Assembly (NCBI GenBank): GCA_021852275.1
Contig: JAJZNX010000202.1
Coordinates: 1 to 53,684, forward strand
Direction of reading: 5' to 3'
Length of the DNA: 53,684 nt
From: Planctomycetota bacterium
GTDB lineage: Bacteria; Planctomycetota; Phycisphaerae; WQYP01
This document shows positions 6,549-34,013 of the stretch, piece by piece. The first letter of the stretch is position 1. The number at the start of each line of letters is the position of its first letter. The notes beneath the pieces were generated by a model. The model was not told the DNA's origin. It ran no database searches and worked only from the letters and a program-made list of their open reading frames with translations. Both the position numbers and the translations under genes were made by a program.

Positions 6549-6602
6549 ATCCTGCAACTCCCTGCGGACAGCCTCGCACCCGCCGATGGTCCGCGCATAG
6601 AC

Positions 6603-12952: not shown

Positions 12953-13525
12953 TTATCGCGTGTTGTGCATCGCCATGAAAAACTCATTCATGGCCGCATG
13001 CATCTGCGGATTCCCGCTGCTCAGGCCGCGGGCCATCATCTGCGGAAGCCGGGCGGCGAAATTACCGCCAGGTCCATGGCCGTGGCCGTGGCCGGGGCCA
13101 TTGTTGCCATTTTGCGGATGGGCGGCCTTCCACCTGGCATGCATTTTCTTAAAGCGGGCTTTCATCTGGCGCACCACCGCCTGTTGCTGGGTCGGAGTGG
13201 CACGGGCAAAGGCGAGCAAAAAAGCCTCGAAATGAGCCCGGCGATTTTGCCACATGGCGCGCCGCTGCGCCGGGGTCATCGTTCGCCATGCAGACCGATT
13301 AAAATGATGGCCGGGGTGAAACATGGGAAATTGCAGAGGTTTACCGGCATTTTGCGCCATAATTTTGGCGACTTCCGGCGAAAGCCCCGCCGCCCGCACC
13401 GGACTGGTAAAAAACATGCGTCCGTAAACCACTAAAACAGCCAGCACCAGCAGCGCTAATACAATCAAGGATCGCGAGTTGCGGCTGGACTGCTTCAGGC
13501 GGTCGATTATTCCGATTTTGGGCAT
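12953..13525 (-). CDS. Small single-pass membrane protein, unknown function
   Basis: 190 residues. One transmembrane helix lies near residues 19-37, followed by an extracytoplasmic, Met-, His- and Arg-rich helical region (RRAMWQNRRAHFEAFL) and a flexible stretch with repeated GH pairs (GHGHGHGPGG, near 147-156). AGGAG lies 7 nt before the ATG at 13525. It follows the prepilin-like gene by only 24 nt, so the two are probably co-transcribed. The arrangement loosely recalls Spy/CpxP-like or DUF3106-like helical proteins, but I do not recognise a family. The His/Gly run could bind metal; this is a guess. Confidence 0.65.
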   Translation of the reverse strand: MPKIGIIDRLKQSSRNSRSLIVLALLVLAVLVVYGRMFFTSPVRAAGLSPEVAKIMAQNAGKPLQFPMFHPGHHFNRSAWRTMTPAQRRAMWQNRRAHFEAFLLAFARATPTQQQAVVRQMKARFKKMHARWKAAHPQNGNNGPGHGHGHGPGGNFAARLPQMMARGLSSGNPQMHAAMNEFFMAMHNTR

Positions 13526-15716: not shown

Positions 15717-17639
15717 ATGTCTACTTCCACTTCCCCTATCGGGGCGGGGGCGAATGCGTCTGCCGCCAAAACTACATCCAAGTCCAATGCCACCAACGCG
15801 ATCGGCGCTCCACCGGCGCACCGTACGGGCAGCATCGTGGTGGAAAATGCCGCGAAAGCGACGGAATCCATCGCCAATGGATTGCCGGTTCTGGGGCGAC
15901 CCACTGGCAAAACGGACCGCTTTAACGGCATGACCGGTGCCCAGATACTTTTACAGATGTTGCTGGAGCACGGGGTTACGGATGCATTTGGTTATCCGGG
16001 TGGAGCAATCTTGCCCACGTTTGACCAACTCTACGAAAAGCAACTGAATTTTATTCTGGTGCGGCATGAACAGGGTGCCGGCCACATGGCTGATGGTTAC
16101 GCACGCGCCACCGGCAAACCGGGCATTGTGATTGTTACCAGCGGCCCTGGTGCCACCAATACCGTTACCCCGCTGGCGACAGCATACATGGATTCCATAC
16201 CCATGATCGTTTTTTCCGGCCAGGTGCGAAGCTACCTGATCGGTAACGATGCCTTTCAGGAGGCGGATGTTACCGGCATCACACGACCGGTGACGAAACG
16301 AAATTACCTGGTGAAAAATGTGCGCGATCTGCCACGTATCATCAATGAAGCGTTCATTATCGCCACAACGGGCCGGCCTGGTCCGGTGCTGGTGGATTTG
16401 CCGGTGGATGTGACTACGGGAAAAATTGAGGATGCAGTGGATGATACGCCATATCTGCCAGGTTACAAAATATACAAGGCTGGCCACAGCAAAATGGTGA
16501 AAGCCGCGGCGGATTTAATTAATGCCTCGGAACGTCCGGTGTTGTACGTGGGCGGAGGAGTGATTCTCAGCCAGGCGTGGCCGCACGTGCGTGAAATTGC
16601 CCGTAAAGGCAACATTCCCACCACTACGACACTTCTGGGTCTGGGGGCCTTTGATGAAAACAGTCCGCTTAGCCTGCACATGCTGGGCATGCACGGCAGC
16701 GCGTATGCCAATTATGCGGTGCAGGAAAGCGATTGTCTGATAGCCGTGGGTGCACGCTTTGACGACCGTGTTACGGGCAACCTGAAACTCTTTGCGCCCA
16801 AGGCGAAAATCGTGCACGTGGATATTGACCCTTCCAGCATCAGTAAAAATGTGAAAGTGGATGTGCCAGTGGTGGGTGACGCATGCCTGTGCCTGGAAGA
16901 AATGCTGGGCTACATTGAACCGCGTCCACGCAGTTCGTGGCTCTCGCAGGTGGCCCGATGGAAGGTGTCTTTCCCATTTGCCTATAAAGACGATACCGAG
17001 CTTTCCAAGCCGCAGGCCATCATCGAGGCCATTAACAAAGTGACCGGCGGAAAAGCGGTGTTCACGACAGGCGTGGGTCAACACCAGATGTGGGCGGCGC
17101 AGTTTGTGCGCTGGAGTGTTCCGCGAAGCATGATTACCAGCGGCGGTCTTGGCACCATGGGCTTCGGCCTGCCGGCGGCCATCGGCGCACAGGTCGGCCG
17201 TCCGAATGAGTTGGTGATTGATATTGACGGCGATGCCTCCTACATCATGACGGCGATGGAGCTGGCCACCATGAGCCAGTACAACCTGCCGGTGAAAGTG
17301 GCAATATTGAACAATCGCTTTCAGGGCATGGTGCGGCAATGGCAGCAACTTTTCTATAAAGGCCGATTTTCGCACAGCGAAATGGTGAACCCGGATTTTG
17401 CGGCCATGGCGGAAAGCTTTGGCATCCGGGGTCTGCGCTGCCATCGCAAGCAGGACCTGATTCAATGCGTGGAGGAAATGGTGAACCACCCCGGCCCGTG
17501 TGTGGTGGATTTCCTCTGTGAAACGGATGAAAATGTGTATCCAATGGTGGCCAGTGGAAAAGGGCTCCATGAGATGGAGCTGGGCATTGTCGGCTGTGCA
17601 GCGCCCAACAGCGATCGGGAAATGGGAACGTTGGCCTGA
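15717..17639 (+). CDS. ilvB: Acetolactate synthase large subunit
   Basis: 640 residues. It carries the TPP-enzyme signatures: RHEQGAGHMADGYARATGKPG with the catalytic Glu, the DAFQEADV region, and the TPP/Mg2+ motif starting IDGDASYIMTAMELA and ending at LNN. It joins pyruvate with pyruvate or 2-oxobutyrate in branched-chain amino acid synthesis. Compared with the family there are about 65-70 extra N-terminal residues rich in Ser, Thr, Ala and Gly before the conserved domain begins at NGMTGAQILLQ. GAAAGG lies 5 nt before the ATG, and no better internal start is obvious. The small subunit follows after 104 nt. Confidence 0.96.
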   Translation: MSTSTSPIGAGANASAAKTTSKSNATNAIGAPPAHRTGSIVVENAAKATESIANGLPVLGRPTGKTDRFNGMTGAQILLQMLLEHGVTDAFGYPGGAILPTFDQLYEKQLNFILVRHEQGAGHMADGYARATGKPGIVIVTSGPGATNTVTPLATAYMDSIPMIVFSGQVRSYLIGNDAFQEADVTGITRPVTKRNYLVKNVRDLPRIINEAFIIATTGRPGPVLVDLPVDVTTGKIEDAVDDTPYLPGYKIYKAGHSKMVKAAADLINASERPVLYVGGGVILSQAWPHVREIARKGNIPTTTTLLGLGAFDENSPLSLHMLGMHGSAYANYAVQESDCLIAVGARFDDRVTGNLKLFAPKAKIVHVDIDPSSISKNVKVDVPVVGDACLCLEEMLGYIEPRPRSSWLSQVARWKVSFPFAYKDDTELSKPQAIIEAINKVTGGKAVFTTGVGQHQMWAAQFVRWSVPRSMITSGGLGTMGFGLPAAIGAQVGRPNELVIDIDGDASYIMTAMELATMSQYNLPVKVAILNNRFQGMVRQWQQLFYKGRFSHSEMVNPDFAAMAESFGIRGLRCHRKQDLIQCVEEMVNHPGPCVVDFLCETDENVYPMVASGKGLHEMELGIVGCAAPNSDREMGTLA

Positions 17640-18352: not shown

Positions 18353-18490
18353 CACCCGGTATGCACCTTAAGGGAATTTCCGGGTATACTGGTCTGCCGC
18401 GACCGGTCTGCACGCAGCTTCGGCCGAGGCCAGGTGATGGCATAAATTCCAGTGCGTTGGCGAACGACACAGGAAAGGCAAAAGTCACCG

Positions 18491-19666
18491 ATGAATGACC
18501 GTGAACGTTTTAACGCGACCATGCACTACCAACCGCGGGATCGCAGTCCCATCTGCGATTTTGGGTTTTGGCCGGAAACCATCGACGGATGGCACCGCCA
18601 GGGTTTGCCCGTCTGGGTTACCGGCGGACACGATACCACACACACTGATAAATTCTTCGGCATGGATTTATACAATGGCGGCCCCTCGCCAAACGTGTGT
18701 CTTTACCCCGCATTTCCGGCAACGGTGCTGGAAGATCGCGGTGATCATGAAGTGGTGCAGCAGGGCGACGGCGTGCGCGTGTTGCGTAAAAAATATATGG
18801 GTTCCATTCCCACCCACCTGGGCCATCTACTGGTGGACCGCGATAGCTGGAACGCGCACTACAAACCTAAACTGGACCCGGCCACGCCCGGCAGATTCCC
18901 CAGCGGACCGGACCTGGATCAGGCAATTAAAATATGGACCGACCCGCACCGCTCCACCCCCTGTGTGGGCTGGGGAGGCAGTTTGTTTGGATGGCTGCGC
19001 GACTGGATGGGGATGGAAAATATTGCCCTGGTTCCGTATGACGACCCGGCGTGGTTTGAAGAAATGGTAACCACCCTGGCCGATGTTATTGTGGCGATGC
19101 TGGGCCGGGTGTTCGCCACCGGGGCCAAGCTGGACGCCATCAGTATGTGGGAGGACATGTGTTTCAATTCCGGACCACTGCTAAGCCCGCCTTTTTTCAA
19201 AAAGTACCTGGTACCGCAATACCGGCGCATTACGGATCTGGCCCGCAGGCACGGCGTGGATGTGATATGGGTGGATTGCGACGGGAAAATTGATGATTTG
19301 CTGCCTTTATGGCTGGAAGCCGGCGTGAACTGCATGTTTCCCCTGGAAGTAGGCACCTGGCAGGCGGACCCCGTGCAATATCGAAAGCACTACGGCCGTG
19401 AACTTTTAATGATGGGCGGATTTGATAAACACATTCTGGCCCGCAGCAAGAAAGATATTGAACACGAAGTGCATCGGTTAACGCCCCTGGTGGAAGAGGG
19501 TGGCTTTATCCCCTTTGCCGACCACCGGGTGCCGCCGGATGTACCGCTGGAAAATTATATGTATTACCTTGAGCAGGCACGGCGATTCTGGGGAAAAAAT
19601 CATTCCAGCCTCAAGCCCATCGGGAAGCTTGATGCGATCAAAGAAAACTTATCGCCGCAGAAATAA
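18491..19666 (+). CDS. Uroporphyrinogen decarboxylase-fold protein, methyltransferase-like
   Basis: 391 residues from the ATG at 18491, preceded by AGGAAAGG about 12 nt upstream. The start MNDRERFNATMHYQPRDR is typical of UROD-superfamily proteins in methyl-transfer clusters (MtaA/MtbA-like group). Other family-like parts are AISMWEDMCFNSGPLLSP and GVDVIWVDCDGKIDDLLP, near the barrel C-terminal side. True UroD would be in heme synthesis, but the adjacent RACo-like activator, 66 nt downstream, points to corrinoid-dependent methyl transfer. The classical zinc-binding His/Cys set of MtaA is not clear here. Substrate unknown, and no corrinoid protein gene is nearby. Confidence 0.8.
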   Translation: MNDRERFNATMHYQPRDRSPICDFGFWPETIDGWHRQGLPVWVTGGHDTTHTDKFFGMDLYNGGPSPNVCLYPAFPATVLEDRGDHEVVQQGDGVRVLRKKYMGSIPTHLGHLLVDRDSWNAHYKPKLDPATPGRFPSGPDLDQAIKIWTDPHRSTPCVGWGGSLFGWLRDWMGMENIALVPYDDPAWFEEMVTTLADVIVAMLGRVFATGAKLDAISMWEDMCFNSGPLLSPPFFKKYLVPQYRRITDLARRHGVDVIWVDCDGKIDDLLPLWLEAGVNCMFPLEVGTWQADPVQYRKHYGRELLMMGGFDKHILARSKKDIEHEVHRLTPLVEEGGFIPFADHRVPPDVPLENYMYYLEQARRFWGKNHSSLKPIGKLDAIKENLSPQK

Positions 19667-19732
19667 ACCTATCGACTGACTTGGCGGTCTGGCGATGGAA
19701 CCGTTCGTGTTGTGTTAAGCAGGCGAGAATTG

Positions 19733-21652
19733 ATGAATCACCCACCTGTTTCACTGAATATTGAAATCCCCACTGGAACGCGAACTGTTTTGCTGGATCA
19801 GAACCAGCAAGTGCTGCCACTGACGGAAGTATTGCGTCATTTCGGGTTGCCGCTGAATACCCGCTGTGGCCAGCGCGGAAAATGCGATGGCTGTCTGGTG
19901 GATTTGCTGCAGGGAAAGTTGATCCACCTGGTGAATGGTGAAACAATTAACGCCGGGAATCCGTTATTATCCGTGCGGGCCTGTGAATATCGCGTGGCGG
20001 ATCCGCAGAACTCCCCGCGCGAATTACGGATTTGTGTGCCGGCCAGATCCCTGCTGGCTTATGAGCCGCAGGTGCTCAAGGATTACCGCATCAGTGTGCC
20101 GTTTTCCAACTTTCCGTTGTGGCAGCAGATTCCGGTGCAGCGGCAAGAGCCTGATGAGCACAGCGCCACGGTTGACGGGGCGGCCCACTATCTGAAACAA
20201 TCTTTGGGTTTGCGCTCTACACCGATTGTTACCACCGCAGCCCTGCAACAGTGGAACCAGAAGCGGGGAGTCTCCAAGGTTTGGGCTGTCCTGCAATATC
20301 AACCATCCGGCTGGTCGATTACCGCATTTGAACACGAGCCTGTCAGGCAGCCATTGGGAGCGGCCATCGATATCGGTACCACCACTGTGGTGGCACTGCT
20401 GGTGGATTTGAGCACCGGCCAGGTGCTGGCACAGGCGGCGAATTTTAACGGGCAGATTAACCTGGCTGATGATGTTGTTACACGCATATCTTTATGCGGG
20501 CAGGATCCAACCATGATTGCACGCATGCACGAGGCTATCTGTGAGGACACGATTGTGCCGTTGCTGCGGGAAACATTGGAAATCGCCCGGGTTCCAGCGG
20601 ACACACCACTGCAAGCGGTGGCGGTAGCGGGTAATACCACCATGCAGCATTTGTTTGCTGGAGAGGATCCTTCCGGACTGGGCACGGTGCCGTTTACGCC
20701 CATATTTCTGGAGTATCTACATTTAAACGGCCCCAGGGTATTTACCGCCACCAAGAATGGGGCTGCACCGGCCCAAACCGTTCATCTTCTGCCATCACCG
20801 GCTGCTTATGTGGGAGCCGATCTGGCCGCTGGTATTCTGGCCTCCGGGCTAATTTACGATGATGGCCCATCGCTGCTCATTGATATTGGCACCAATGGAG
20901 AAATCATCTTCAAAAAGCAGGATTTGCTCCTGGGCTGCGCCACCGCCGCCGGCCCAGCCTTCGAAGGTGCCGGGCTGGCCTGCGGCATGCGAGCTGGTGA
21001 TGGAGCTATTGCCTACGTACACCTGAAGACCGATCCGCTGCAAATTCAAACCCGGCGAATTGGTGAAAATGGGTATGCCGCCGGATTGTGCGGCTCGGCT
21101 TATGTGGATTTTCTGGCGGAAGCCCGCCGCATCGGCCTGATCGATACGATGGGCCGCTTTGATCTTCAAGCCGTGCCGGACGCCCAGGCCCACATGATTG
21201 CCTGGCGGCCACGTCGCGGTTCAGTGGAAGACCGGGCGATGGTGCTGGCTTATGGCCAAGCCAAACGCCCCATAGTTGTGGCGGAAGCGGATATTGCTGG
21301 GCTCTTATCATCAAAAGCCGCGATTGCCGCAGGAATTATGATTCTGATGAAGCGGGCCGAGGTGACGCCGGCGCAGATTAAACGCGTATATCTGGCAGGC
21401 GGTTTTGGAACTTACATGATTGCCGCCAATGCCATCGCCTGCGGACTCTTGCCGGGCTTTACCCCAGAGCAAATAGTAGCCGTAGGCAATACCTCCCTGG
21501 CGGGAGCGTACCTTTCGCTGGTTGATGCATCCGCCATGGATGAAATCCGCCGCCTCGCCCGGTGCGTCCAGACCCTTGAATTGAATCTGGACCCCGAATT
21601 TGAGACCACGTATATCGATCAACTGGCTCTGCCGGAGGTCCAGCCAAACTAA
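19733..21652 (+). CDS. RACo-like corrinoid activation protein ([2Fe-2S] + DUF4445/ASKHA)
   Basis: About 639 residues. The N-terminal ferredoxin domain has CGQRGKCDGC and a later Cys in RACEY, fitting a plant-type [2Fe-2S] cluster. The C-terminal two-thirds is the DUF4445/ASKHA ATPase fold: GAAIDIGTTTVVALLVDL, DIGTNGEI and LAGGFGTYM are phosphate- or adenosine-binding-like motifs. RACo proteins use ATP to re-reduce inactive Co(II) corrinoid in methyltransferase systems. I chose the ATG at 19733 (AGGCGAG five nt upstream) over a GTG at 19712. It follows the UROD-fold gene, supporting a joint role in methyl transfer. Confidence 0.88.
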   Translation: MNHPPVSLNIEIPTGTRTVLLDQNQQVLPLTEVLRHFGLPLNTRCGQRGKCDGCLVDLLQGKLIHLVNGETINAGNPLLSVRACEYRVADPQNSPRELRICVPARSLLAYEPQVLKDYRISVPFSNFPLWQQIPVQRQEPDEHSATVDGAAHYLKQSLGLRSTPIVTTAALQQWNQKRGVSKVWAVLQYQPSGWSITAFEHEPVRQPLGAAIDIGTTTVVALLVDLSTGQVLAQAANFNGQINLADDVVTRISLCGQDPTMIARMHEAICEDTIVPLLRETLEIARVPADTPLQAVAVAGNTTMQHLFAGEDPSGLGTVPFTPIFLEYLHLNGPRVFTATKNGAAPAQTVHLLPSPAAYVGADLAAGILASGLIYDDGPSLLIDIGTNGEIIFKKQDLLLGCATAAGPAFEGAGLACGMRAGDGAIAYVHLKTDPLQIQTRRIGENGYAAGLCGSAYVDFLAEARRIGLIDTMGRFDLQAVPDAQAHMIAWRPRRGSVEDRAMVLAYGQAKRPIVVAEADIAGLLSSKAAIAAGIMILMKRAEVTPAQIKRVYLAGGFGTYMIAANAIACGLLPGFTPEQIVAVGNTSLAGAYLSLVDASAMDEIRRLARCVQTLELNLDPEFETTYIDQLALPEVQPN

Positions 21653-21689: not shown

Positions 21690-22703
21690 TTATATGCCGA
21701 CCAGCGTCTTTGTCCGCAACCTGTACACCAGCCAGGAACCCAGCCACACCGTCGCAGTCAACAGCACAAATCCGGCACCTACAAACACAAAATGACTATT
21801 GATAATGGCTACCCATGATCCCGTCCGGGGTGACAAAATTCCCCAGATTTCAATGATGCCGATCCCCATGGCCATCACGATGGTGGTCAGAGTCATGGCG
21901 GCGTTGTAGTACCTGGCACCACGTGGCGTGGTGAGCGCCCAATTACAGGCGGAAAGAATAAGGATATTATCCAGGGAATCCACCAGACTCATGCCCGCGG
22001 CAAATAAAAGCGGAAATAACAGACAATACCAGAATGGCATACCTTGTGACGCCGTCCCTGCGGAAATAATTAAAATGGCCACTTCGCTGGCGGTATCAAA
22101 ACCCAGGCCAAACAGAAATCCAACGGTAAACATCTTCCAGTTGTTGTCCACCAATTTCAAGACCGGGCCTAACAGGGGAGTCAGCAGTCCACCGGAAAGA
22201 TTCGTTTCCACCTGCTGGTTGTTTCCAGTTTGCTCCCCGTCTCGCCACATTTTCGCCTGCCGCCAGGAATGATACAGCCCCCAGAAATTCGCCCCCCCCA
22301 CCGCCAGCAGCAGCGCGGCCGAAACCACCCCGCCAAAAACCGTTCCGAATTTCAGCAATCCTGAAAGTGAGTGGCTCACTCGACTGACGCTGACAATAAG
22401 CAGCAAGGATAAACCTACCACCACCGTGGAATGCCCCAGAGAAAACATCAATCCAACGGAAACTCTCTTCTTTCCAGCAGAAAGCAACCGACGGGTTACG
22501 CCGTCAATAGCCGCAATATGATCCGCGTCCAGAGCATGACGAAGCCCGAAGACATACGCCGTTGCAGCCAAGGCCACCAAAGCCGCATGTTTATAAAACA
22601 CCAGCCCTACCACCACCCACAGGCCCAGGCTCCAGAGAGTCAGGAGGGCCAAGAGCCATAAGCCAGCCGCCTTTACTTCAAGGTTGCGCCGGATGAGTCT
22701 CAT
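21690..22703 (-). CDS. NicO/NiCoT-family nickel or cobalt transporter
   Basis: 337 residues from the ATG at 22703, with AGGGG 8 nt upstream. The family signature RHALDADHIAAIDG (H56, D61, H62 as HX4DH) lies in the second hydrophobic segment, and LGFDTASEVAIL and AGMSLVDSLDN match later conserved motifs. About eight transmembrane helices are visible, with a His/Gln-poor cytoplasmic loop near the middle. It imports Ni2+ or Co2+ across the inner membrane. It converges on the RACo-like gene (37 nt apart) and lies 112 nt downstream of hppA on the same strand. Cobalt uptake for corrinoids is an inference from context. Confidence 0.92.
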   Translation of the reverse strand: MRLIRRNLEVKAAGLWLLALLTLWSLGLWVVVGLVFYKHAALVALAATAYVFGLRHALDADHIAAIDGVTRRLLSAGKKRVSVGLMFSLGHSTVVVGLSLLLIVSVSRVSHSLSGLLKFGTVFGGVVSAALLLAVGGANFWGLYHSWRQAKMWRDGEQTGNNQQVETNLSGGLLTPLLGPVLKLVDNNWKMFTVGFLFGLGFDTASEVAILIISAGTASQGMPFWYCLLFPLLFAAGMSLVDSLDNILILSACNWALTTPRGARYYNAAMTLTTIVMAMGIGIIEIWGILSPRTGSWVAIINSHFVFVGAGFVLLTATVWLGSWLVYRLRTKTLVGI

Positions 22704-22815
22704 GATGTTTCCCCTTATGCGCCGGGACACAAGCCTTGCCCCATGTTGATCAACGCACTGCCCGCGCCCCTACGTCTGGGTTCACCAGCAATCGCCATGC
22801 AAAGGCCCGGGACGA

Positions 22816-26097: not shown

Positions 26098-26142
26098 ATT
26101 GCGACATACTTGCGTAGTTTCGCAATTAAATACAATCGCAAC
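26098..26142 (+). promoter_or_regulatory. Inverted TTGCG half-site array, candidate ArsR operator
   Basis: ATTGCGA (26098-26104) and TCGCAAT (26120-26126) form a perfect 7-bp inverted repeat. A second forward half-site, TTGCG, lies at 26110-26114, and a second reverse one, TCGCAA, at 26136-26141. The four sites span about 43 nt and end directly before the ArsR gene start. An ArsR dimer would fit such an arrangement. Binding is untested. Confidence 0.55.
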
Positions 26143-26159
26143 GGAAGATGGAGTTGCTG

Positions 26160-26621
26160 ATGTTAGCCCGGATGAATGATGAGATGTGCGAAGTCATGTG
26201 CGAGTTCTTCTCGCTGCTGGCCCATCCGAACAGAATCCGGATGTTCTGCGCTCTTCAGCATGGTCCACAAACAGTATCAGCACTGGCGGAACAATCACAA
26301 ATTTCTTTGCCCAATGCGTCTCAACATCTGCGCGTTATGCGTCAAAACGGAGCGTTGACCCACGTGAAACGGGGCCAGCAGGTGTTTTATCAGATCGCCG
26401 ATCCCCGATTTATCCAGGCCGCCGAAATCATTCGGGATACTTTGCTGGAAAAAGTCCAGGGTCATGCTCGGCGGACGGCCCAGGGCACGGTGTACCGCAA
26501 GAACCCGCGGCCACAGTCGCAATTGGCCCGGCCAGCCACTCTCTCCATGGCCACCAAAGCGCACAATCTACAGAACCGTAACAATGTTATACCTCTATTT
26601 AAGAAGGAGTTTTCATTATGA
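26160..26621 (+). CDS. ArsR/SmtB-family transcriptional regulator
   Basis: 153 residues from the ATG at 26160, preceded by GATGGAG six nt upstream (an ATG at 26148 is possible). The winged helix-turn-helix is clear: LAHPNRIRMFCALQHG, then TVSALAEQSQ, the recognition region LPNASQHLRVMRQNG and a wing KRGQQVFYQI. Cysteines lie at 10, 14 and 30; there is no pair matching the alpha-2/alpha-5 cysteines of BigR/SqrR-type persulfide sensors. About 50 C-terminal residues extend beyond the usual domain. The stop overlaps the tusA ATG (ATGA), so it heads the sulfur/Hdr operon. It probably senses a metal or sulfur signal and represses its own operon. Confidence 0.9.
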   Translation: MLARMNDEMCEVMCEFFSLLAHPNRIRMFCALQHGPQTVSALAEQSQISLPNASQHLRVMRQNGALTHVKRGQQVFYQIADPRFIQAAEIIRDTLLEKVQGHARRTAQGTVYRKNPRPQSQLARPATLSMATKAHNLQNRNNVIPLFKKEFSL

Positions 26622-26872
26622 CCACCGAAGAATTAACCGCCATAACACCGGACAAGGTGATTGATGCACGCGGCACCGCATGTCCAGGCCCGCTGCTGGA
26701 AGCCAAAAAAGGTATCGGTGCAGTGAAAGTAAGCCAGATCATTGAAATCAAATCCAATGACCAAGGCTCACGTAAAGACATCAGTGCATGGTCCGGCAAA
26801 ATCGGCCATGAATTTCTCGGATTTATTGAAGCGGATGGCCACGACCGGTTGTTTGTACGTCGCAAAAAATAA
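26618..26872 (+). CDS. tusA: TusA-type sulfur carrier protein
   Basis: 84 residues, the normal size. The family motif ACPGPLLEAKK holds the persulfide-carrying Cys22 in CPxP context. AAGGAG lies 9 nt before the ATG, which overlaps the ArsR stop. TusA passes sulfane sulfur as a cysteine persulfide between enzymes in the cytoplasm; in sulfur oxidisers it occurs with DsrE proteins and Hdr-like complexes. Here it precedes MvhD- and HdrA-like genes, with DsrE2 at the end of the same gene run. The direction of sulfur flow cannot be told from sequence. Confidence 0.93.
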   Translation: MTTEELTAITPDKVIDARGTACPGPLLEAKKGIGAVKVSQIIEIKSNDQGSRKDISAWSGKIGHEFLGFIEADGHDRLFVRRKK

Positions 26873-26913
26873 CCGCCGTATCTGCTGAAATACAGGTAAT
26901 ATCGAGGTGCTGT

Positions 26914-27402
26914 ATGGTTGCCACCTTTACTCCTAAAATATTGGTTTTAGCCACAGAACGATGTGCCTATCCCGGCGCAGATGCCGTAGGCAAAGCCCAT
27001 CTGGAATACGGTTCCAACGTCAGTGTGCTGCGTGTGCCCTCACCGGTACTGTTTCCGATGGACTTTTATCTGCGCTGCTATGCGCGGGGAATAGACGGCA
27101 TACTCATCGCCGCCTGCGGCTCCGACTGCCCGTATCGTGGTGCTTATGATCGCCTGGCCGCGCGCATTGACAAACTCACTGCCGTGATGAAGCGTGAGGG
27201 ACTGGAAATTCAGCGAATTCGCCTGACTGCCATTTGTACGGTGTGCATCAAGGCGTATCTCAAGGAAGTTGGTGAACTTAATGATAAATTGCTCAAGCTG
27301 GGACCGGTTGATCGTGCCAAGGCCGCCGCCATTGAGCAAATATGCCGGCGGCAACTCAGACCCGCGGCTGCGGTTGCGGTGGTCGAACCCGTCAACGCAT
27401 GA
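26914..27402 (+). CDS. MvhD/FrhD-like iron-sulfur subunit
   Basis: 162 residues. It matches the MvhD family in layout: an N-terminal CAYPGADAVG, DGILIAACGSDCPYRGAY in the middle and a helical C-terminus. Cysteines lie at 17, 55, 68, 72, 108 and 111. The usual first Cys of CxWC and the Cys of RxPCSG appear replaced (Thr/Ala and Ser), while a CTVC pair is added at 108-111, so the cluster ligands are probably rearranged. In methanogens MvhD links hydrogenase to HdrA; in QmoB it is a C-terminal domain. Here it precedes two HdrA-like genes by 15 nt. GAGGTG precedes the ATG. Confidence 0.85.
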   Translation: MVATFTPKILVLATERCAYPGADAVGKAHLEYGSNVSVLRVPSPVLFPMDFYLRCYARGIDGILIAACGSDCPYRGAYDRLAARIDKLTAVMKREGLEIQRIRLTAICTVCIKAYLKEVGELNDKLLKLGPVDRAKAAAIEQICRRQLRPAAAVAVVEPVNA

Positions 27403-27417
27403 TGAAAGGTGGATGTC

Positions 27418-28812
27418 ATGGTAGCAATGGAGAAACAGATTCATACGGATGTACTGGTCGTTGGCGGCGGCATCGCCGGCATCCAATCCGCCCTGGACAT
27501 GGCTGATCAGGGATTTAAGGTCATCATCGTCGAGCGGCAATCCAGCATCGGCGGCCAGATGATTGCCTTAAGCAAAGTCTTTCCCACTTTGGATTGCGCC
27601 AGTTGCATCACCACACCCAAAATGTCCGCGGCGGCTCATCATCCCAATATTCAATTGATGGTCAATACCGAAGTGAACCAGATTGAAACAATCGGTGCTG
27701 GACAGCAGGTTACTGTGACCCGCAAGGCGACTTATGTGGACCCGGAAAAGTGCATCGGCTGCAGGCTATGCGAGTATGCCTGCGAAATTGAATATCCCGA
27801 CCCTTTTGAACTGGGATTGGGGGCCATACGGGCCATTGCCATTCCCTTTACCAACGCCATTCCTCAAAAGGCGGTGCTGAACCCGGATTATTGCACCACC
27901 TGCGGACTATGCGCCAGGGCCTGCCCTACCGACGCCATCGATTATGCCCAGGAGCCGCAAACCTTTACAATTCACGCCGATACGGTCATCGTGGCTTCCG
28001 GTTTTGCGCTTAACAGTCTGAATGTAAAACCTCAATACAATGCGGCACAAAGTAAGAATGTCATTTCACCCTTGACTATGGAGCGGCTGCTGGCACCGCA
28101 CGCTCCATACGGCCGGGTGCTGCGACCTTCGGACGGCAAGATTCCCACCTCCATCGCATTTGTTCAGTGCGCCGGATCACGCGATGAAACCATTGGCGTC
28201 CCCTATTGTTCGCGCGTTTGCTGCATGTATGCCATCAAGCAGGCCATGCTGCTTTCCGGCGCGTTGCCGATGGCCGATATCACCATTTACTACATGGATA
28301 TCCGGGCTTTTGGTAAAGGTTACGAGCAGTTCTACCAGAATGCCAAGGCCATGGGAATTAACTTTGTGCGCGGCAAAGTTGCACGTATTGAATCCGCTCC
28401 GAACGATGATATGCTGCTGCACGTTGAACTGACCGAAGAAGCAGTTGATCCCTGCCGCCAGCAGCGCCATGACCTGGTCGTCCTGGCCCAAGGCATGCTG
28501 CCGCAGTGGAATGTCTCGGAGCATTCATCGCTGCAGCGCGAATCAGACGGCTTTGTGGCCTCACCCGACGTGATCAATCCAAGCGCCACCAACCTGCCGG
28601 GTATTTTCTCCGCCGGTACCGCATCAGGCCCTAAAGATATCGTTGATACGATTACCGAATCCGGAGCGGCCGCCATGGCCGCCCGCCGTTATTTACATCA
28701 ACAAAAAGGCGATAAAAACCCGGACCTCTCAACCGATAAGGCGGCGGTTCACCTTGTTCAGCGAGACGCGGGAGAAATCCGTGACGGCCAAACCGTCCAA
28801 GCCGGGCTTTGA
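27418..28812 (+). CDS. HdrA/QmoA-like FAD iron-sulfur protein
   Basis: 464 residues from the ATG at 27418, with AAAGGTGG five nt upstream. An N-terminal Rossmann motif VVGGGIAGIQSALDMA binds FAD. Between about 110 and 170 lies an inserted ferredoxin with two intact CxxCxxCxxxC sets (C112-C122 and C159-C169). A CASC pair is at 60-63. A second FAD-domain half follows. Compared with HdrA it lacks both the N-terminal Cys-rich domain and the C-terminal ferredoxin. It is directly followed by a second HdrA-like gene that has those parts but not the insert, suggesting a QmoA/QmoB-style heterodimer. Predicted cytoplasmic electron transfer. Confidence 0.88.
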   Translation: MVAMEKQIHTDVLVVGGGIAGIQSALDMADQGFKVIIVERQSSIGGQMIALSKVFPTLDCASCITTPKMSAAAHHPNIQLMVNTEVNQIETIGAGQQVTVTRKATYVDPEKCIGCRLCEYACEIEYPDPFELGLGAIRAIAIPFTNAIPQKAVLNPDYCTTCGLCARACPTDAIDYAQEPQTFTIHADTVIVASGFALNSLNVKPQYNAAQSKNVISPLTMERLLAPHAPYGRVLRPSDGKIPTSIAFVQCAGSRDETIGVPYCSRVCCMYAIKQAMLLSGALPMADITIYYMDIRAFGKGYEQFYQNAKAMGINFVRGKVARIESAPNDDMLLHVELTEEAVDPCRQQRHDLVVLAQGMLPQWNVSEHSSLQRESDGFVASPDVINPSATNLPGIFSAGTASGPKDIVDTITESGAAAMAARRYLHQQKGDKNPDLSTDKAAVHLVQRDAGEIRDGQTVQAGL

Positions 28813-28823
28813 AAGGAGATCCG

Positions 28824-30680
28824 ATGAATACGATCAACAACAGCCAACATGACCACCAGGAGCCTCGCATCGGCGTTTATATCTGCCGCTGCGGTGGAAA
28901 TATTTCCGACGTGGTGGACGTTGAGCGCGTCGCGGAGGTGTCCCGGCATATACCCGGCGTGGTGGTGGCCAAAGTTCACACTTTTTGCTGCAGTGACCCC
29001 GGCCAAAACACCATCAGCCAGGATATTCAGGCAGAAAAGCTCGACCGGGTGGTGGTGGCATCCTGCTCGCCATTTCTCCATGAGTTGACATTTCGCGGAG
29101 CGGTGCAGCGAGGCGGTCTGAATCCGTACCTCTACGAGCATGCGAACATTCGCGAGCAAGGTTCCTGGGCGCATAAACATGATCCCGCGGGAGCCACCGC
29201 CAAATCCATTCGCATGATTGCCGCGGCTGTGGGCAAATTGCAATATTCCACCCCACTGGATCAAATTCGGCTTCCCAATCATCGCAAGGCACTGGTCATC
29301 GGCGGCGGCATCGCCGGCATGAAGGTCGCTGCCGATCTGGCCGGACGCGGCATTCCGGTGCTGCTGGTAGAATCCAGCGGTCGTCTCGGCGGACGGTTAA
29401 ATCAATGGAATCGGGTGTTTCCAACGGATACCCCCGCCGGCCAACTGGTTACTAAACTCCTGGCCCAACTGGATGCAAACCCGCTGGTGGAAATACTGTT
29501 GAATTGCAAAGTCACCGCGGTTACCGGTTTCGTCGGCAGCTTCCAAGTAACCATTGAAGGACCGCTTGGGCCGTCTGGAGCTATGACCACCACACAAACC
29601 ACCATCGGCGCTATTGTCATGGCCACCGGCTTTAAACCCTATGTTCCCGACGATGGTGAATTTCTCTACAAAAAAGATCCGGGCGTAGTAACAATGCCCG
29701 AATTCATTGACCTGATGCGCGGCCAGCCGACTGGCACCGGCGAACTGGTTTACAAAGGCAGAACCATACGCAGCGTCGCATTTCTGCACTGCGTCGGCAG
29801 TCGGCAAATTGATGGCGTGCATACACCGCGGGCCGATGGAAAAATCAATACTTACTGCTCCCGTGTCTGCTGTACGACCACGTTGCAGCAGGCCATTGCA
29901 GCCAAAGAGCGTTTTCCTTCTCTACAGGTGTACGACCTGCATCAGGATATTCGCACCTATGGCCGCGGGCACGAAGATTATTACGTACGGGCCGGCAAGG
30001 CTGGAGTCGTGTTTTTCCGTTATCACGGCGACGAAATACCGCGCGTCACGCCTGCGGACGGTAAACGCCCTGCTGAACCATCATTGCACATCACTTTTAA
30101 GGATTACCTCACCTGGGGTGAAGAGTTAACCCTGGATGTGGATATGCTGGTACTGGCCGTGGGCTTAATGGCCGGCGACATCCCCGATCTGATCAATATG
30201 TTCAAACTCCCGGTCGGGGAAGATCGCTTCATCCAGGAAATTCACCCCAAGCTGCGACCGGTCGAAATATCCGTTAATGGCGTTCTGTTGGCCGGAACCG
30301 TGCAGGGACCGATGAATATTGAAGAAACGCTTAACGCCGCCGGAGCGGCCGCGGTCAAGGCCAGCGCCATGTTCCTGAAAGATGTGGTGGAATTAAATCC
30401 TTATGTAGCCCAGGTTGATACCGATCTTTGCCAGGGTAGTGGAGCCTGTGTTACCCAATGCGAATATGACGGAGCCATCGCCATGGTTGAAACCCAGGTA
30501 AACGGTAAGACTGTGCGGCAAGCCAAAGTGAACCCGGGCTTGTGTGTAGGTTGCGGGGCCTGTGTGGCGGTATGCCCCACCCGGGCGATTAATCTTAACG
30601 GCTGGCGACTGGATCAATACGACGCCATGGTTGATGGTCTGACGGCGGAAATTCCAGAGGTGGCCGCCGCCACGAGTTGA
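28824..30680 (+). CDS. HdrA/QmoB-like FAD iron-sulfur protein
   Basis: 618 residues from the ATG at 28824 (AAGGAG upstream). The N-terminal domain has GVYICRCGGNISDVV, VHTFCCSDPG and VVVASCSPFLHE, as in HdrA. A Rossmann motif VIGGGIAGMKVAADLAG starts near 158. No ferredoxin is inserted in the FAD domain. Two ferredoxin motifs end the protein: C574, C577, C580 and C584 are complete; in the first, CQGSGACVTQC, Ser539 stands where the second Cys ligand belongs. QmoB carries an MvhD domain at its C-terminus, here a separate gene upstream. Likely partner of the preceding protein. Confidence 0.88.
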   Translation: MNTINNSQHDHQEPRIGVYICRCGGNISDVVDVERVAEVSRHIPGVVVAKVHTFCCSDPGQNTISQDIQAEKLDRVVVASCSPFLHELTFRGAVQRGGLNPYLYEHANIREQGSWAHKHDPAGATAKSIRMIAAAVGKLQYSTPLDQIRLPNHRKALVIGGGIAGMKVAADLAGRGIPVLLVESSGRLGGRLNQWNRVFPTDTPAGQLVTKLLAQLDANPLVEILLNCKVTAVTGFVGSFQVTIEGPLGPSGAMTTTQTTIGAIVMATGFKPYVPDDGEFLYKKDPGVVTMPEFIDLMRGQPTGTGELVYKGRTIRSVAFLHCVGSRQIDGVHTPRADGKINTYCSRVCCTTTLQQAIAAKERFPSLQVYDLHQDIRTYGRGHEDYYVRAGKAGVVFFRYHGDEIPRVTPADGKRPAEPSLHITFKDYLTWGEELTLDVDMLVLAVGLMAGDIPDLINMFKLPVGEDRFIQEIHPKLRPVEISVNGVLLAGTVQGPMNIEETLNAAGAAAVKASAMFLKDVVELNPYVAQVDTDLCQGSGACVTQCEYDGAIAMVETQVNGKTVRQAKVNPGLCVGCGACVAVCPTRAINLNGWRLDQYDAMVDGLTAEIPEVAAATS

Positions 30681-30702
30681 TTTTCACACAGGAGATTTTG
30701 TC

Positions 30703-31059
30703 ATGTCTGCCAAAACACTCACTGCAGAACAGAAACAGTCGTTGGCCGCGCTGCGCAAGCGCATGGGTGGTATCAGCGAGGAAAAACGCGCCCGGCTCAA
30801 GGAACAAACAACCATCCGAAAGGCCATTCGCGAAGCGCTGGCCAAAGGTCCTGTTACTGTGCCGGAACTGGCATCCGCCACTCAATTCCCGGCGCAGCAG
30901 GTTTTCTGGCATCTCATGGGCATGAGAAAGTACGGCCTGGTGCGCGAAGTCGGCGATGCGGACCCATACGTTCGTTACGGCCTGGTTGAAAGCGATAAAC
31001 CGGCAGTACCGGAGAAAAGATCCCTCCAAGGCACAGCGGCACCGAGTTCTGCTCATTAA
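30703..31059 (+). CDS. Small winged-helix-like protein in Hdr operon
   Basis: 118 residues, with AGGAG eight nt before the ATG. The N-terminal 45 residues are strongly charged and helical. The middle (GPVTVPELASATQFPAQQV, then FWHLMGMRKYGLV) looks like a helix-turn-helix with a wing. No cysteine or membrane segment is present. It lies between the second HdrA-like gene (22 nt) and the QmoC-like gene (24 nt), so its expression should match theirs. It could be a transcription factor, an assembly factor or a protein-protein adaptor. I do not recognise a named family. Confidence 0.75.
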   Translation: MSAKTLTAEQKQSLAALRKRMGGISEEKRARLKEQTTIRKAIREALAKGPVTVPELASATQFPAQQVFWHLMGMRKYGLVREVGDADPYVRYGLVESDKPAVPEKRSLQGTAAPSSAH

Positions 31060-31083
31060 CATGGTATTTCAGGAGGTCCAGCC

Positions 31084-32235
31084 ATGACCACACAACTCCA
31101 TAAGACACTCCACGAAGAGATGCATTTCTTTGGTGGCAAAGACGTGGATTTATGCATGAATTGCGGAACCTGCACCGTCATTTGTCCCCTGGCACGGGAC
31201 GAAGGCGGCACGTTTCCAAGACGCATCATCCGCCTGATTCAGACCGGCCAAAAGCGCCTGCTGGTTAAAAGCCTTGATCCATGGCTGTGTTATTATTGCG
31301 GAGATTGCTCGGAAAACTGCCCGCGCCAGGCCAATCCCGCCGAAACCATGATGGCATCGCGCCGATATCTGACCTCGCAATATGATTGGACCGGTCTGGC
31401 CCGACTATTTTATAAATCTGCTCTGATGGAAATTCTGGCCATTGTGCTGGTGGGCCTTTTCGTCACTGGCCTGTTTGTGTGGTTTCATGGCCCCATGGTG
31501 CTTACCTTACCCGTCCAGCTCAACACCTTTGCCCCGGTCAAGTGGGTTGAATTAGGTGACTGGATCATGGCGGGCACACTTTCATTTTTCCTGCTGACCA
31601 ATGCCGCACGCATGGTCTGGAACACGCTGGACGGAAAACAAATGTTTGGCATTTCCCCCCTGATTTACTTCAAGGCCGTTCCGGTCTTTTTTGATCATAT
31701 GTTTACCCAGCGGCGATCACGCCAATGTGGATCCACCCGCAGCCGGTCCTTCTGGCTCAAACATCTGCTGCTGGTCAGCGGTTACCTGAGCATGCTGGTA
31801 TTGGTGCTGATACTGTTGCGCTGGTTCCAGACCGACCGAATTTATCCGATCTACAATCCCCAGCGACTGTGGGGTTATTACGCCACCCTGGCCCTTTTAT
31901 ACCCCACCGGAGCATTCCTAATTTCCCGCTGGCGCAGAAAGGAACCCATTCATTTTTTCAGTGAAGCCAGCGACTGGATATTTCTGGTCATGCTGTTTTT
32001 GACTGCGCTTACCGGCATCATGGTCAGCCTGGCCCGCGTCAATGGATTCCCCATGACTACGTATGTGATCTATGTTATTCATCTCTCCATCGCCGTGCCC
32101 ATGCTGGTGGTGGAGGTGCCCTTCAGCAAATGGTCCCATTTGTTATATCGCCCCTTGGCGATGTATCTGGTCAGCGTCAAAAAGGCTGCGGCGGCGGTTT
32201 CACTCAAAACACAACCGGAGGCCGCCACTGCCTGA
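31084..32235 (+). CDS. QmoC-like HdrC-HdrE fusion, membrane iron-sulfur protein
   Basis: 383 residues. The first 85 hold two [4Fe-4S] motifs: CMNCGTCTVICP (C24-C34) and CYYCGDCSENCP (C69-C79), as in HdrC. Six hydrophobic segments follow, at about 115-140, 158-178, 220-245, 262-283, 297-318 and 322-345, resembling cytochrome b of HdrE/NarI. His residues in KHLLLVSGY and YVIHLSIAVP could be heme ligands. This is the QmoC layout, so it should pass electrons between the cytoplasmic HdrA-like proteins and the quinone pool. No HdrB (CCG-domain) gene is in the window. Confidence 0.9.
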   Translation: MTTQLHKTLHEEMHFFGGKDVDLCMNCGTCTVICPLARDEGGTFPRRIIRLIQTGQKRLLVKSLDPWLCYYCGDCSENCPRQANPAETMMASRRYLTSQYDWTGLARLFYKSALMEILAIVLVGLFVTGLFVWFHGPMVLTLPVQLNTFAPVKWVELGDWIMAGTLSFFLLTNAARMVWNTLDGKQMFGISPLIYFKAVPVFFDHMFTQRRSRQCGSTRSRSFWLKHLLLVSGYLSMLVLVLILLRWFQTDRIYPIYNPQRLWGYYATLALLYPTGAFLISRWRRKEPIHFFSEASDWIFLVMLFLTALTGIMVSLARVNGFPMTTYVIYVIHLSIAVPMLVVEVPFSKWSHLLYRPLAMYLVSVKKAAAAVSLKTQPEAATA

Positions 32236-32295
32236 TTGCGGCCAGAAAGGTTTGGTACGCCATGCGTATAATTCTTGATTTGAAAGGAGCTTCTT

Positions 32296-32853
32296 ATGAC
32301 TGTTCTGGAAACATCTGCATTGGAGGAAAAGCTTTCCGCCCTAACCACTCGTGTGGAATCTCTGGAAAAGTCCGCGGGAAATGACCATCTGGCCCTGGGC
32401 GTGATGAGCGGAAACCTGGATACCACCATGGCGGCGTTTATTATCGCCCTGGGGGCTACTGCGTATGATGTGCAAGTGGATATGTTCTTTACATTCTGGG
32501 CTATTGCCGCACTGCGCGATCCTAAAAAGGCCGCACGCAAGGGATTTCTGGACAAAATGTTCGGACTGATGTTACCGCGCGGAGCCAGGGCTTTGCCACT
32601 CTCCAAACTGCAAATGGCAGGGGTTGGCCCCAAAATGATTCGCGCGGTCATGCAGCAGCGCGGCGTAAAATCGCTGGAAGGCTTAATAAAGGATGCCGGG
32701 GAACTTGGGGTTCGCATTCATATATGCGAGATGTCCATGAATGTCATGGGCTTCAAACCTGAAGAAATGATTGATTATCCCAATTTGGACTATGTTGGGG
32801 TGGCCACCTTTATTAAATTGATCGGTGAAGCCAAACAGGCATTTTTCCTGTAA
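32296..32853 (+). CDS. DsrE2-family sulfurtransferase-like protein
   Basis: 185 residues, with AAAGGAG before the ATG. A coiled-coil N-terminus (about 8-27) precedes the DsrE2 core: AAFIIALGATAYDVQVDMFFTFWAI, shown here only as its parts AAFIIALGATAYD and FFTFWAI, then LPLSKLQMAGVGP and IHICEMSMNVMG. The single Cys144 corresponds to the persulfide-accepting Cys of the family. DsrE2 proteins are often encoded with TusA and rhodaneses and may anchor or relay sulfane sulfur at the membrane. Here it closes the TusA/Hdr gene run, 60 nt after the QmoC-like gene. Confidence 0.9.
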   Translation: MTVLETSALEEKLSALTTRVESLEKSAGNDHLALGVMSGNLDTTMAAFIIALGATAYDVQVDMFFTFWAIAALRDPKKAARKGFLDKMFGLMLPRGARALPLSKLQMAGVGPKMIRAVMQQRGVKSLEGLIKDAGELGVRIHICEMSMNVMGFKPEEMIDYPNLDYVGVATFIKLIGEAKQAFFL

Positions 32854-33005
32854 ACTATAGTCACCAGGCCATTGGCCCTGGAGCTAATGGCGTGGTATCA
32901 TCGCTGTTTCGTGGTTCACGCGGCGGCGGGAACGAGGAGGTACCGATCGGCTTTTTCTGATTACCTGGCAATTTCGGGCAGTGCAGCCTAAGAGGATCTG
33001 ATTTT

Positions 33006-34013
33006 ATGGATATGACCACCAATTATCTCGGGATGCAACTTGTAAATCCGTTAGTTGTCGGGTCTTCGCCCATGACTGCCGACCTGGACATGGTCAAGCG
33101 CCTGGAGGACGCTGGTGCGGCGGCGGTCGTCATGCACTCTCTTTTTGAAGAGCAAATTCGCCGTGATAGCCGGTCTTCCGTTTACTACCGTGAAATGTAC
33201 GCCGATAGCTATAGGGAAGAACCCGGCCTGATGCCCACCCCGGAAGAATTTCTGCTTGGCCCTGATGAGTATCTTGAACAGATCCGCCGCATTCGCCAAG
33301 CTGTTAAAATTCCCGTCATTGCTTCCATCAACGGTATCACCGCCGGTGGCTGGGCGGAATATGCCAAATCCATTGTTCAGGCCGGTGCCCATGCCATTGA
33401 GTTAAATGCCTACCGCCTGGCCACCGAACTAACCGTTACCGGCAATCAACTGGAAGAGGATACGATAGCGGCCATTAAGTCCGTGCACCTGCAGGTCAAC
33501 ATTCCCATGGCCGTTAAACTTTGTCCGTTTTATTCTTCATTGCCCAATTTTGCCCTGAAATTGGCCGACATAGGAATTCAAGGCCTGGTTCTTTTTAACC
33601 GCTTTTATCAACCGGATATTGATCCGGAAACACGAACCGTTCTGCCCCGCGTTACCATCTCCGATTCCAATGAACTGCTGCTGCGGTTGCGCTGGATTGC
33701 CATCCTGGATGGCCGCCTGGATGTGGATCTGGCCTGTTCCGGTGGCGTACATACCCATCTGGATGTGATTAAAGCAATCATGGCCGGGGCCAATGTCACG
33801 CAAATGGTTTCCGCTTTGCTTAAGCATGGCCCGACACATTTAACTCGCATACGGGCGGATATGGAACAATGGCTGCAGACTCACGGATACCCATCCATCC
33901 GTAAGTTGCACCGCTCCATGCAGGGTGTTGAAGGTGTGGATCCTCAAGCCCGCGAACGTGCCAACTACATGCACGTGCTGCAAAGCTGGCACTACAGCAG
34001 ATCGGATCGATAG
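33006..34013 (+). CDS. Dihydroorotate dehydrogenase-like FMN protein
   Basis: 335 residues. It begins MTTNYLGMQLVNPLVVGSSP, typical of the PyrD-like TIM-barrel family, and has PVIASINGITAGGW, AVKLCPFYSS and GGVHTHLDVIKAIMAGA, which form an FMN-type phosphate-binding pattern. Members annotated 'dihydroorotate dehydrogenase-like' often lie beside ferredoxin-dependent enzymes and need not act in pyrimidine synthesis. No pyr genes are nearby. It lies 152 nt after the DsrE2 gene, a larger gap than within the operon, so it may be co-transcribed or have its own promoter. AGAGGA precedes the ATG. Confidence 0.88.
   Translation: MDMTTNYLGMQLVNPLVVGSSPMTADLDMVKRLEDAGAAAVVMHSLFEEQIRRDSRSSVYYREMYADSYREEPGLMPTPEEFLLGPDEYLEQIRRIRQAVKIPVIASINGITAGGWAEYAKSIVQAGAHAIELNAYRLATELTVTGNQLEEDTIAAIKSVHLQVNIPMAVKLCPFYSSLPNFALKLADIGIQGLVLFNRFYQPDIDPETRTVLPRVTISDSNELLLRLRWIAILDGRLDVDLACSGGVHTHLDVIKAIMAGANVTQMVSALLKHGPTHLTRIRADMEQWLQTHGYPSIRKLHRSMQGVEGVDPQARERANYMHVLQSWHYSRSDR

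Follow-up and report, generated by a model that had tools for sequence, protein, structure and literature searches.

The window analysed here, a 53,684-nucleotide stretch of DNA from a Planctomycetota bacterium (contig JAJZNX010000202.1 of assembly GCA_021852275.1), carries a run of + strand genes in the order ArsR-TusA-MvhD-like-QmoA-like-QmoB-like-winged helix-QmoC-like-DsrE2, followed by a DHOD-like gene. The products of this operon probably form a membrane complex that exchanges electrons between the quinone pool and sulfane sulfur carried by TusA and DsrE2. The core gene order is conserved in distant genomes, and the MvhD-like subunit has an altered set of cysteines, including a CxVC motif, where it is encoded beside TusA. 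More tentatively, the operon may specify an undescribed respiratory complex, spread over at least eight phylum labels, in which the CxVC-type MvhD replaces HdrB and acts directly on TusA-bound sulfane sulfur, and which would provide a third quinone-linked route besides rDsr and sHdr.

The window is contig C143 of the source genome G000 (3.58 Mb assembly, 82% complete). Among the relatives found through QmoC, the nearest named records are Planctomycetota metagenome-assembled genomes (MAGs). One record from the host family (L033, MAG 19) is placed by its authors in the Phycisphaerae, order UBA1161 (PMC8357290; this and the other papers cited are represented by excerpts). The features of the operon are as follows.

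26110 to 26125, no strand: candidate operator, inverted repeat TTGCG-n6-CGCAA, directly 5' of ArsR (weak evidence)
26148 to 26621, + strand: ArsR/SmtB-type regulator, gene 1, with a 4-base overlap with TusA
26618 to 26872, + strand: TusA sulfur carrier (Pfam, 62 bits), with Cys22 in the CPGP motif
26914 to 27402, + strand: MvhD/FlpD-like subunit of the CxVC type (FlpD domain, 68.7 bits; cut-off 22.3)
27235 to 27246, + strand: CTVC motif (Cys108 and Cys111) of the MvhD-like subunit
27409 to 28812, + strand: QmoA-like HdrA, 467 amino acids, flavin adenine dinucleotide (FAD) domain with dicluster insert, without C-terminal ferredoxin
28809 to 30680, + strand: QmoB-like HdrA, with HdrA N-terminal domain, FAD domain and C-terminal ferredoxin, without fused MvhD
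30703 to 31059, + strand: small winged-helix protein, a conserved operon member
31084 to 32235, + strand: QmoC-like subunit, HdrC-like part with 2x[4Fe-4S] and cytochrome-b-like membrane part (His227, His333, His352)
32296 to 32853, + strand: DsrE2 (148 bits), with Cys144
33006 to 34013, + strand: DHOD-like protein (PRK07565), accessory, the ninth gene and the end of the run

The original prediction, made from the sequence of the window, had described a run of closely spaced genes from ArsR to DsrE2 at 26160 to 34013. All eight of these genes are present on the + strand, with intergenic gaps of -4 to 60 bases, but position 34013 is the end of the DHOD-like gene, which had been left unnamed and which follows a longer gap of 152 bases. 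The listed start of the QmoB-like gene is TTG; an ATG lies 15 bases downstream.

Gene order and sulfur carriers

Conservation was assessed with QmoC as the starting point: of 194 relatives, the best 80 loci were kept, and a profile script placed the other subunits. Gene order was counted in the 54 of these loci that have at least 4.8 kb upstream (26 shorter ones were left out), and phylum labels are those in the record titles and their taxonomy. The whole core TusA-MvhD-QmoA-QmoB-(winged helix)-QmoC is found in 46 of the 54 loci, far beyond chance; as the loci were retrieved through QmoC, this figure is valid for QmoC neighbours. TusA-MvhD-QmoA occurs in 47 loci, with ArsR also ahead of TusA in 29. 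The 46 core loci carry eight phylum labels (Planctomycetota, Chloroflexota, Bacteroidota, Acidobacteriota, Armatimonadota, Zixibacteria, Myxococcota and Krumholzibacteriota), and the winged-helix gene is missing from three of them (L048, L069 and L076). The core order is not found in L049, L065, L084, L091, L098, L104, L105 and L106, the last of which has the core genes plus one extra HdrA-like open reading frame (ORF). L057 and L058 look like the same organism (equal coordinates and scores), and the greedy choice of ORFs may hide overlapping genes, as with the MvhD and winged-helix genes of L133, which were initially masked.

The same association is seen within the host family. TusA is encoded by 15 of 28 family genomes, in a single copy that is always beside the MvhD and QmoA genes of the cluster; the 13 others, five of which are less than 80% complete, have none (Fisher 2.7e-8 for co-occurrence of TusA and cluster, relatedness ignored). 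All cluster genomes except G017 (14 of 15) encode DsrE2, which is missing from the 13 others; G011 has one extra copy. Genus g2 includes four genomes with TusA and the cluster and four without, two of the latter being less than 80% complete. The cluster is cut by contig ends in G017 and G026, and G001, the fifth genome of the window's genus (69% complete), has neither TusA nor a QmoB match. Outside the family, 392 genomes were drawn and three candidates were scored in each. Besides G000, the only close QmoB match (51% identity) is in G183, which has the order ArsR-TusA-MvhD-QmoA-QmoB-winged helix-QmoC and a CxVC-type MvhD, with no DsrE2 match found; the remaining 11 genomes with QmoB matches show 35-41% identity. 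Beyond the host family, the operon thus looks uncommon within its phylum.

The carriers retain the cysteines on which sulfur would be held. Cys22 of the TusA CPGP motif is invariant (48/48 sequences), as is Cys144 of DsrE2 (15/15 sequences). DsrE-family genes lie on the same strand within 3 kb of QmoC or TusA in 52 of the 80 loci and in 40 of the 46 core loci. The idea that TusA and DsrE2 are linked in relatives therefore holds for both carriers, all 15 TusA-bearing family genomes having TusA in the cluster. A YeeE-family gene is present in 14 of the 80 loci, every one of which has a second TusA. One YeeE from the Anaerolineae set scores 288 bits against the model of the thiosulfate transporter TsuA (cut-off 400).

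A few neighbourhoods depart from this pattern. L036, L091 and L097 have QmoA-winged helix-QmoC genes with no TusA seen upstream, the upstream stretches of L036 and L097 being short; in L091, these genes are preceded by QmoB and by an MvhD that has no CxVC. A cytidylate-kinase-like gene lies 3' of QmoC in two loci (L037:5287-6942 and L039:10370-11590), in L037 between two DsrE genes.

The MvhD-like subunit and the Hdr-type core

The MvhD-like subunit belongs to the MvhD/FlpD family by both domain and fold. Its predicted model (pLDDT 85.7) matches 5odc_D, the MvhD of a methanogen Hdr-hydrogenase complex, over 135 residues (Z 18.6, root-mean-square deviation 2.1), with a Z-score ten units above that of the first unrelated fold. 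Its cysteines are different. Among MvhD matches of at least 70 bits in L008 to L106, a count that covers loci other than the window's own genome, [VI]C[TSA]VC is present in 47 of 47 TusA-adjacent proteins. The MvhD proteins of L054, L059 and L064, where the clusters are cut at a contig edge, also have CxVC. In contrast, CxVC is absent from all 14 MvhD proteins in other settings, ten of which have the usual CxWC and four neither motif. The usual MvhD cysteines a, b and c (CxxC, C and DC) occur together in 8/8 other MvhD proteins and in 0/49 of the CxVC type. Cys108 and Cys111 are the only invariant cysteines in alignment A2 of the MvhD-like proteins, and in the predicted model the motif follows a strand (102-106) and precedes a helix (112-129). 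The MvhD fold is therefore retained and its cysteine chemistry altered where TusA adjoins, a feature that the original prediction had missed. CxVC is a candidate thiol site in place of HdrB. In three of the 49 CxVC-type proteins (two of them near-identical), the CxVC pair provides the only cysteines of the domain.

A Bacteroidota QmoC locus (L080, L084, L095, L098 and L104) encodes two HdrA-like proteins and an MvhD of the usual type, and the next genes, judged by eye, read as hydrogenase small and large subunits. This locus possibly encodes a quinone-linked H2 enzyme, its input module having seemingly been exchanged.

The two HdrA-like subunits were placed in a tree of the HdrA core (78 rows from 47 hand-picked loci, with five short rows left out and SH-aLRT support). 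The operon QmoA-like and QmoB-like proteins form two clades of their own (SH-aLRT 100 each), apart from ordinary HdrA and from L113, the one Apr-linked pair in the tree. Both clades show matching phylum groups, as expected of subunits travelling together, and both also include L036, L091 and L097. Window QmoA is 40-42% identical to HdrA and 34% identical to Apr-linked QmoA. In the alignments, QmoA retains the cysteines of the insert ferredoxin, and QmoB those of the N-terminal HdrA domain and the C-terminal ferredoxin. The eight QmoC cysteines for two [4Fe-4S] clusters are present in all sequences with a residue at the position (78 or 79), and His227, His333 and His352 in 79/79 sequences; these counts take in loci without TusA.

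The QmoA-like protein is much longer (904-974 amino acids) in eight loci labelled Acidobacteria, Armatimonadota, Zixibacteria, Myxococcota or Bacteroidota (L038-L042, L048, L069 and L076). In L038:1824-4535 and L069:1665-4397, a Fer4_20 + Pyr_redox_2 module lies inside the protein, and the QmoA proteins of L040 and L048 have an equal domain-match pattern.

Proposed mechanism and alternative readings

The proposed model for the operon is as follows. The MvhD-like, QmoA-like, QmoB-like and QmoC-like proteins would form a complex facing the cytoplasm, with the winged-helix protein as an accessory. DsrE2 and TusA would hold sulfane sulfur on their conserved cysteines. TusA, with bound sulfane sulfur as the presumed substrate, would dock on the MvhD-like subunit, where the CxVC dithiol could form or cleave the persulfide by transfer of two electrons (TusA-SSH + 2e- + 2H+ <-> TusA-SH + H2S). 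Electrons would pass between this site and quinone by way of the FAD and [4Fe-4S] cofactors of both HdrA-like subunits, the HdrC-like domain and the b-type haem of QmoC; the cofactor sites are read from the sequence, and the path is modelled on Hdr and Qmo. In the Planctomycetota, electrons might flow into the quinone pool (oxidation of sulfide or of a carrier thiol), a guess from generally known potentials. Haem-copper oxidases are encoded by 25 of the 28 family genomes, so electron delivery to an oxidase is possible in the host lineage.

Several points weigh against this model. The CxVC pair could belong to a remodelled Fe-S ligand set rather than a redox dithiol, since 37 of the 49 CxVC-type proteins retain at least four cysteines in the domain. 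TusA also serves elsewhere in tRNA thiolation and Mo cofactor synthesis, and co-occurrence of genes in one operon is expected whatever their function. YeeE is absent from all 28 family genomes and thus does not account for the sulfur supply of the window organism. Delivery of electrons to quinone through QmoC is presumed by homology, and QmoC does not separate the system from Apr-linked Qmo: compared with the two QmoC proteins of G011, that of the window shows 46% identity to the Apr-linked one and only 32% to the one from the TusA cluster. Both window QmoC and the Apr-linked QmoC (180 and 259 bits) are below the curated NCBIfam qmoC cut-off of 300. The case for a separate system therefore rests on QmoA, QmoB, MvhD and the carriers. 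Because a pyridine-nucleotide oxidoreductase-like module is inserted in QmoA of some relatives, the complex may have NAD(P)H as a third partner. Finally, carriers of the operon are often Anaerolineae or Bacteroidales MAGs; the probably anoxic habitats of carriers other than the host lineage, together with the QmoA insert, make reduction a possible direction. In genus g8 (G011 and G018), the QmoC of the TusA cluster is divergent, as if replaced (L114:7884-9281 and L116:1003-2400).

HdrA-type flavoproteins bifurcate electrons in methanogens, and the complex could accordingly be read as a cytoplasmic sulfane-sulfur reductase, possibly flavin-bifurcating or -confurcating, that disposes of electrons from quinol, from a low-potential donor (NAD(P)H or ferredoxin) or from both by converting TusA-bound sulfur to sulfide. 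The module inside the long QmoA proteins would fit such a role, as would the resemblance of one Anaerolineae YeeE to a thiosulfate transporter and the origin of many carriers, Anaerolineae and Bacteroidales MAGs of which several have Zod isolate names and are taken as belonging to the anoxic Zodletone spring set (PMC9040765). However, the 467-residue QmoA of the window lineage has no pyridine-nucleotide module, oxidases are widespread in the family, and reduction of a persulfide by menaquinol is uphill by generally known potentials, so that this reading is rather unlikely. Use of TusA and DsrE2 to deliver sulfur for maturation of the complex, tRNA or Mo cofactor, and not as redox substrates, would agree with the established roles of TusA. 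It is very doubtful, as 13 family genomes (the five incomplete ones included) do without both carriers, relatives add DsrE, a second TusA and YeeE, and the changes in the MvhD subunit coincide exactly with the presence of TusA. An sHdr-like system that oxidises sulfane sulfur all the way to sulfite is equally hard to credit. TusA and DsrE proteins do accompany an sHdr-like cluster in Thermomicrobium (PMC6776052), but the sHdr gene order is hdrC1B1A-hyp-hdrC2B2 (PMC12345210), and sHdr thus needs two HdrB proteins. The paired HdrB/HdrC sets of sHdr are absent from the operon, and one HdrB-like ORF occurs elsewhere in G000 (82% complete).

It is also improbable that the operon encodes the QmoABC of adenosine 5'-phosphosulfate (APS) reduction or oxidation, canonical or type II, with TusA and DsrE2 as bystanders. 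The subunits are Qmo-like, QmoC is similar to that of the Apr-linked locus, and type II Qmo is reported also from organisms without Dsr and Apr (PMC10504309). All cluster genomes but G017, 14 in total, were searched for AprA, NIR_SIR and CCG. AprA is over the cut-off in two of the 14, each time on a contig other than that of the cluster, and is not over it in the other 12. In G011, locus L113 comprises aprA, two unassigned ORFs, qmoA, a qmoB fused at its C-terminus to an MvhD domain, and qmoC, and the TusA operon (L114) is on a separate contig, with the QmoA and QmoB proteins of the two loci in different clades. The QmoB of the operon has no such fused domain, and none of the 28 family genomes has TusA unless it also has the cluster. 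A canonical Qmo identity is rejected by the absence of AprA from most carriers, the separate aprA-qmo locus of G011 and the QmoA/QmoB tree. The original prediction had allowed for the order being a common, described QmoABC locus: it is common, but an Apr-linked QmoABC identity is not borne out and no description was found. Its view that a separate system couples sulfur carriers with a quinone-linked complex of the Hdr type is supported, the gene order differing from that of Apr-linked QmoABC.

A scan of 29 window proteins indeed shows none of HdrB, AprAB and DsrAB, which had been said to be lacking in the window. In the rest of G000 there is no AprA over the cut-off and no DsrAB-type pair, but one HdrB-like ORF is present, beside HdrA on contig C1. 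The other CCG matches of G000 are a 1045-residue ORF and a LutA-like protein on contig C85, which is read as LutA/LutB because it adjoins a LUD-domain protein. The other three genus genomes with the cluster (G002, G003 and G004) likewise have no AprA over the cut-off and no DsrAB-type pair; DsrC is absent from all four, and each has at most one sulfite-reductase-type protein. DsrAB-type pairs are found in 5 of the 14 cluster genomes tested, with one extra NIR_SIR match in G008. DsrC is encoded by seven of the 28 family genomes, five of the 15 with the cluster and two of the 13 without; therefore the cluster does not need DsrC, and a Dsr-coupled system was rejected on this distribution. G011, a Planctomycetota genome, has a DsrAB-type pair and DsrC in addition to aprA-qmoABC.

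Comparison with known systems, regulation and neighbouring genes

The components are individually known, but no description of their combination in this operon or of the MvhD cysteine change was found among the papers listed in the literature searched, which covered few subscription papers and preprints. The operon shares with the QmoABC of APS reductase two HdrA-like subunits, an HdrC/cytochrome-b fusion and a link to quinone. It differs in its separate MvhD with altered cysteines (fused to QmoB in the Apr-linked system), in the addition of TusA, DsrE2, ArsR and the winged-helix protein, and in the lack of AprAB in most carriers. Type II Qmo of Vulcanisaeta and Ammonifex is described as resembling HdrA more than it does type I Qmo, and its function in organisms without Dsr and Apr is given as unknown (PMC10504309). 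Set side by side by description, it may overlap this operon type, as window QmoA is also nearer to HdrA than to Apr-linked QmoA; the excerpt of that paper makes no mention of the TusA linkage seen here.

The bacterial YTD/dsrEFH type II cluster is made up of yeeE, tusA and three dsrEFH-type genes and has no HdrA/QmoC complex (PMC13293266, PMC9751629, PMC8780430). Of genomes with the YTD cluster, 73.9% have reductive dsrAB (PMC13293266), compared with DsrAB-type pairs in 5 of the 14 genomes tested that have the present operon. It resembles the present operon in having TusA and DsrE-family carriers, and YeeE in the Anaerolineae loci, but the window operon has only one DsrE2 and, like the rest of the family, lacks YeeE. 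In archaea, dsrEFH type II genes are reported next to qmoAB or dsrMK (PMC13293266), and the pairing with qmoAB is the nearest printed hint in the excerpts. In sHdr, an HdrA-type flavoprotein also goes with TusA and DsrE carriers; unlike sHdr, the operon has a QmoC-like membrane subunit and no HdrB. HdrABC-MvhAGD and FlxABCD-HdrABC share the HdrA + MvhD architecture, whereas the operon has lost the usual MvhD cysteines, has gained CxVC and is without HdrB, hydrogenase or Flx genes.

Sulfur metabolism of uncultured Chloroflexota, Bacteroidota, Planctomycetota and Acidobacteriota is usually scored by Dsr, Apr, Sox and sHdr markers. Such scoring would miss the operon, since 10 of the 15 cluster genomes lack DsrC and 12 of 14 lack AprA, yet have the carriers and the quinone-linked complex. 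The operon may also explain the published type II Qmo without Apr and Dsr (PMC10504309), and CxVC provides a sharp sequence marker and a testable site.

ArsR is likely to be a local regulator of the operon. Among 17 loci scanned, half-site repeats similar to the candidate operator lie 5' of ArsR in L029, L030 and L032; no repeat with 6-base exact arms is found there in L027, L028 and L034, the arms of the window repeat being 5 bases. Shared sensing cysteines were not found in ArsR: the single column above 60% has Cys in 18 of 29 sequences and Phe in the window, and therefore there is no common sensing site. A promoter and terminator scan was uninformative (5 promoter-like matches vs 7.3 expected; 7 terminator-like matches vs 10.0 expected). 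A DsrD-like role considered for the winged-helix protein finds no backing in the fold comparison: ArsR-type and Z-alpha winged helices are tied near Z 11, and DsrD is not among the 50 fold matches listed. The DHOD-like gene follows DsrE2 only in Planctomycetota copies (L027, L028, L029, L031, L034 and L123).

Elsewhere in the window, a 998-residue ORF (3561-6557) and a 190-residue ORF (12953-13525) have no Pfam match at 1e-6. A URO-D-type protein followed by RACo, a corrinoid activator (18452-21652), reads like a corrinoid methyltransferase system; a thiamine pyrophosphate (TPP) enzyme (15717-17639) and a NicO nickel transporter (21690-22730) are encoded nearby.

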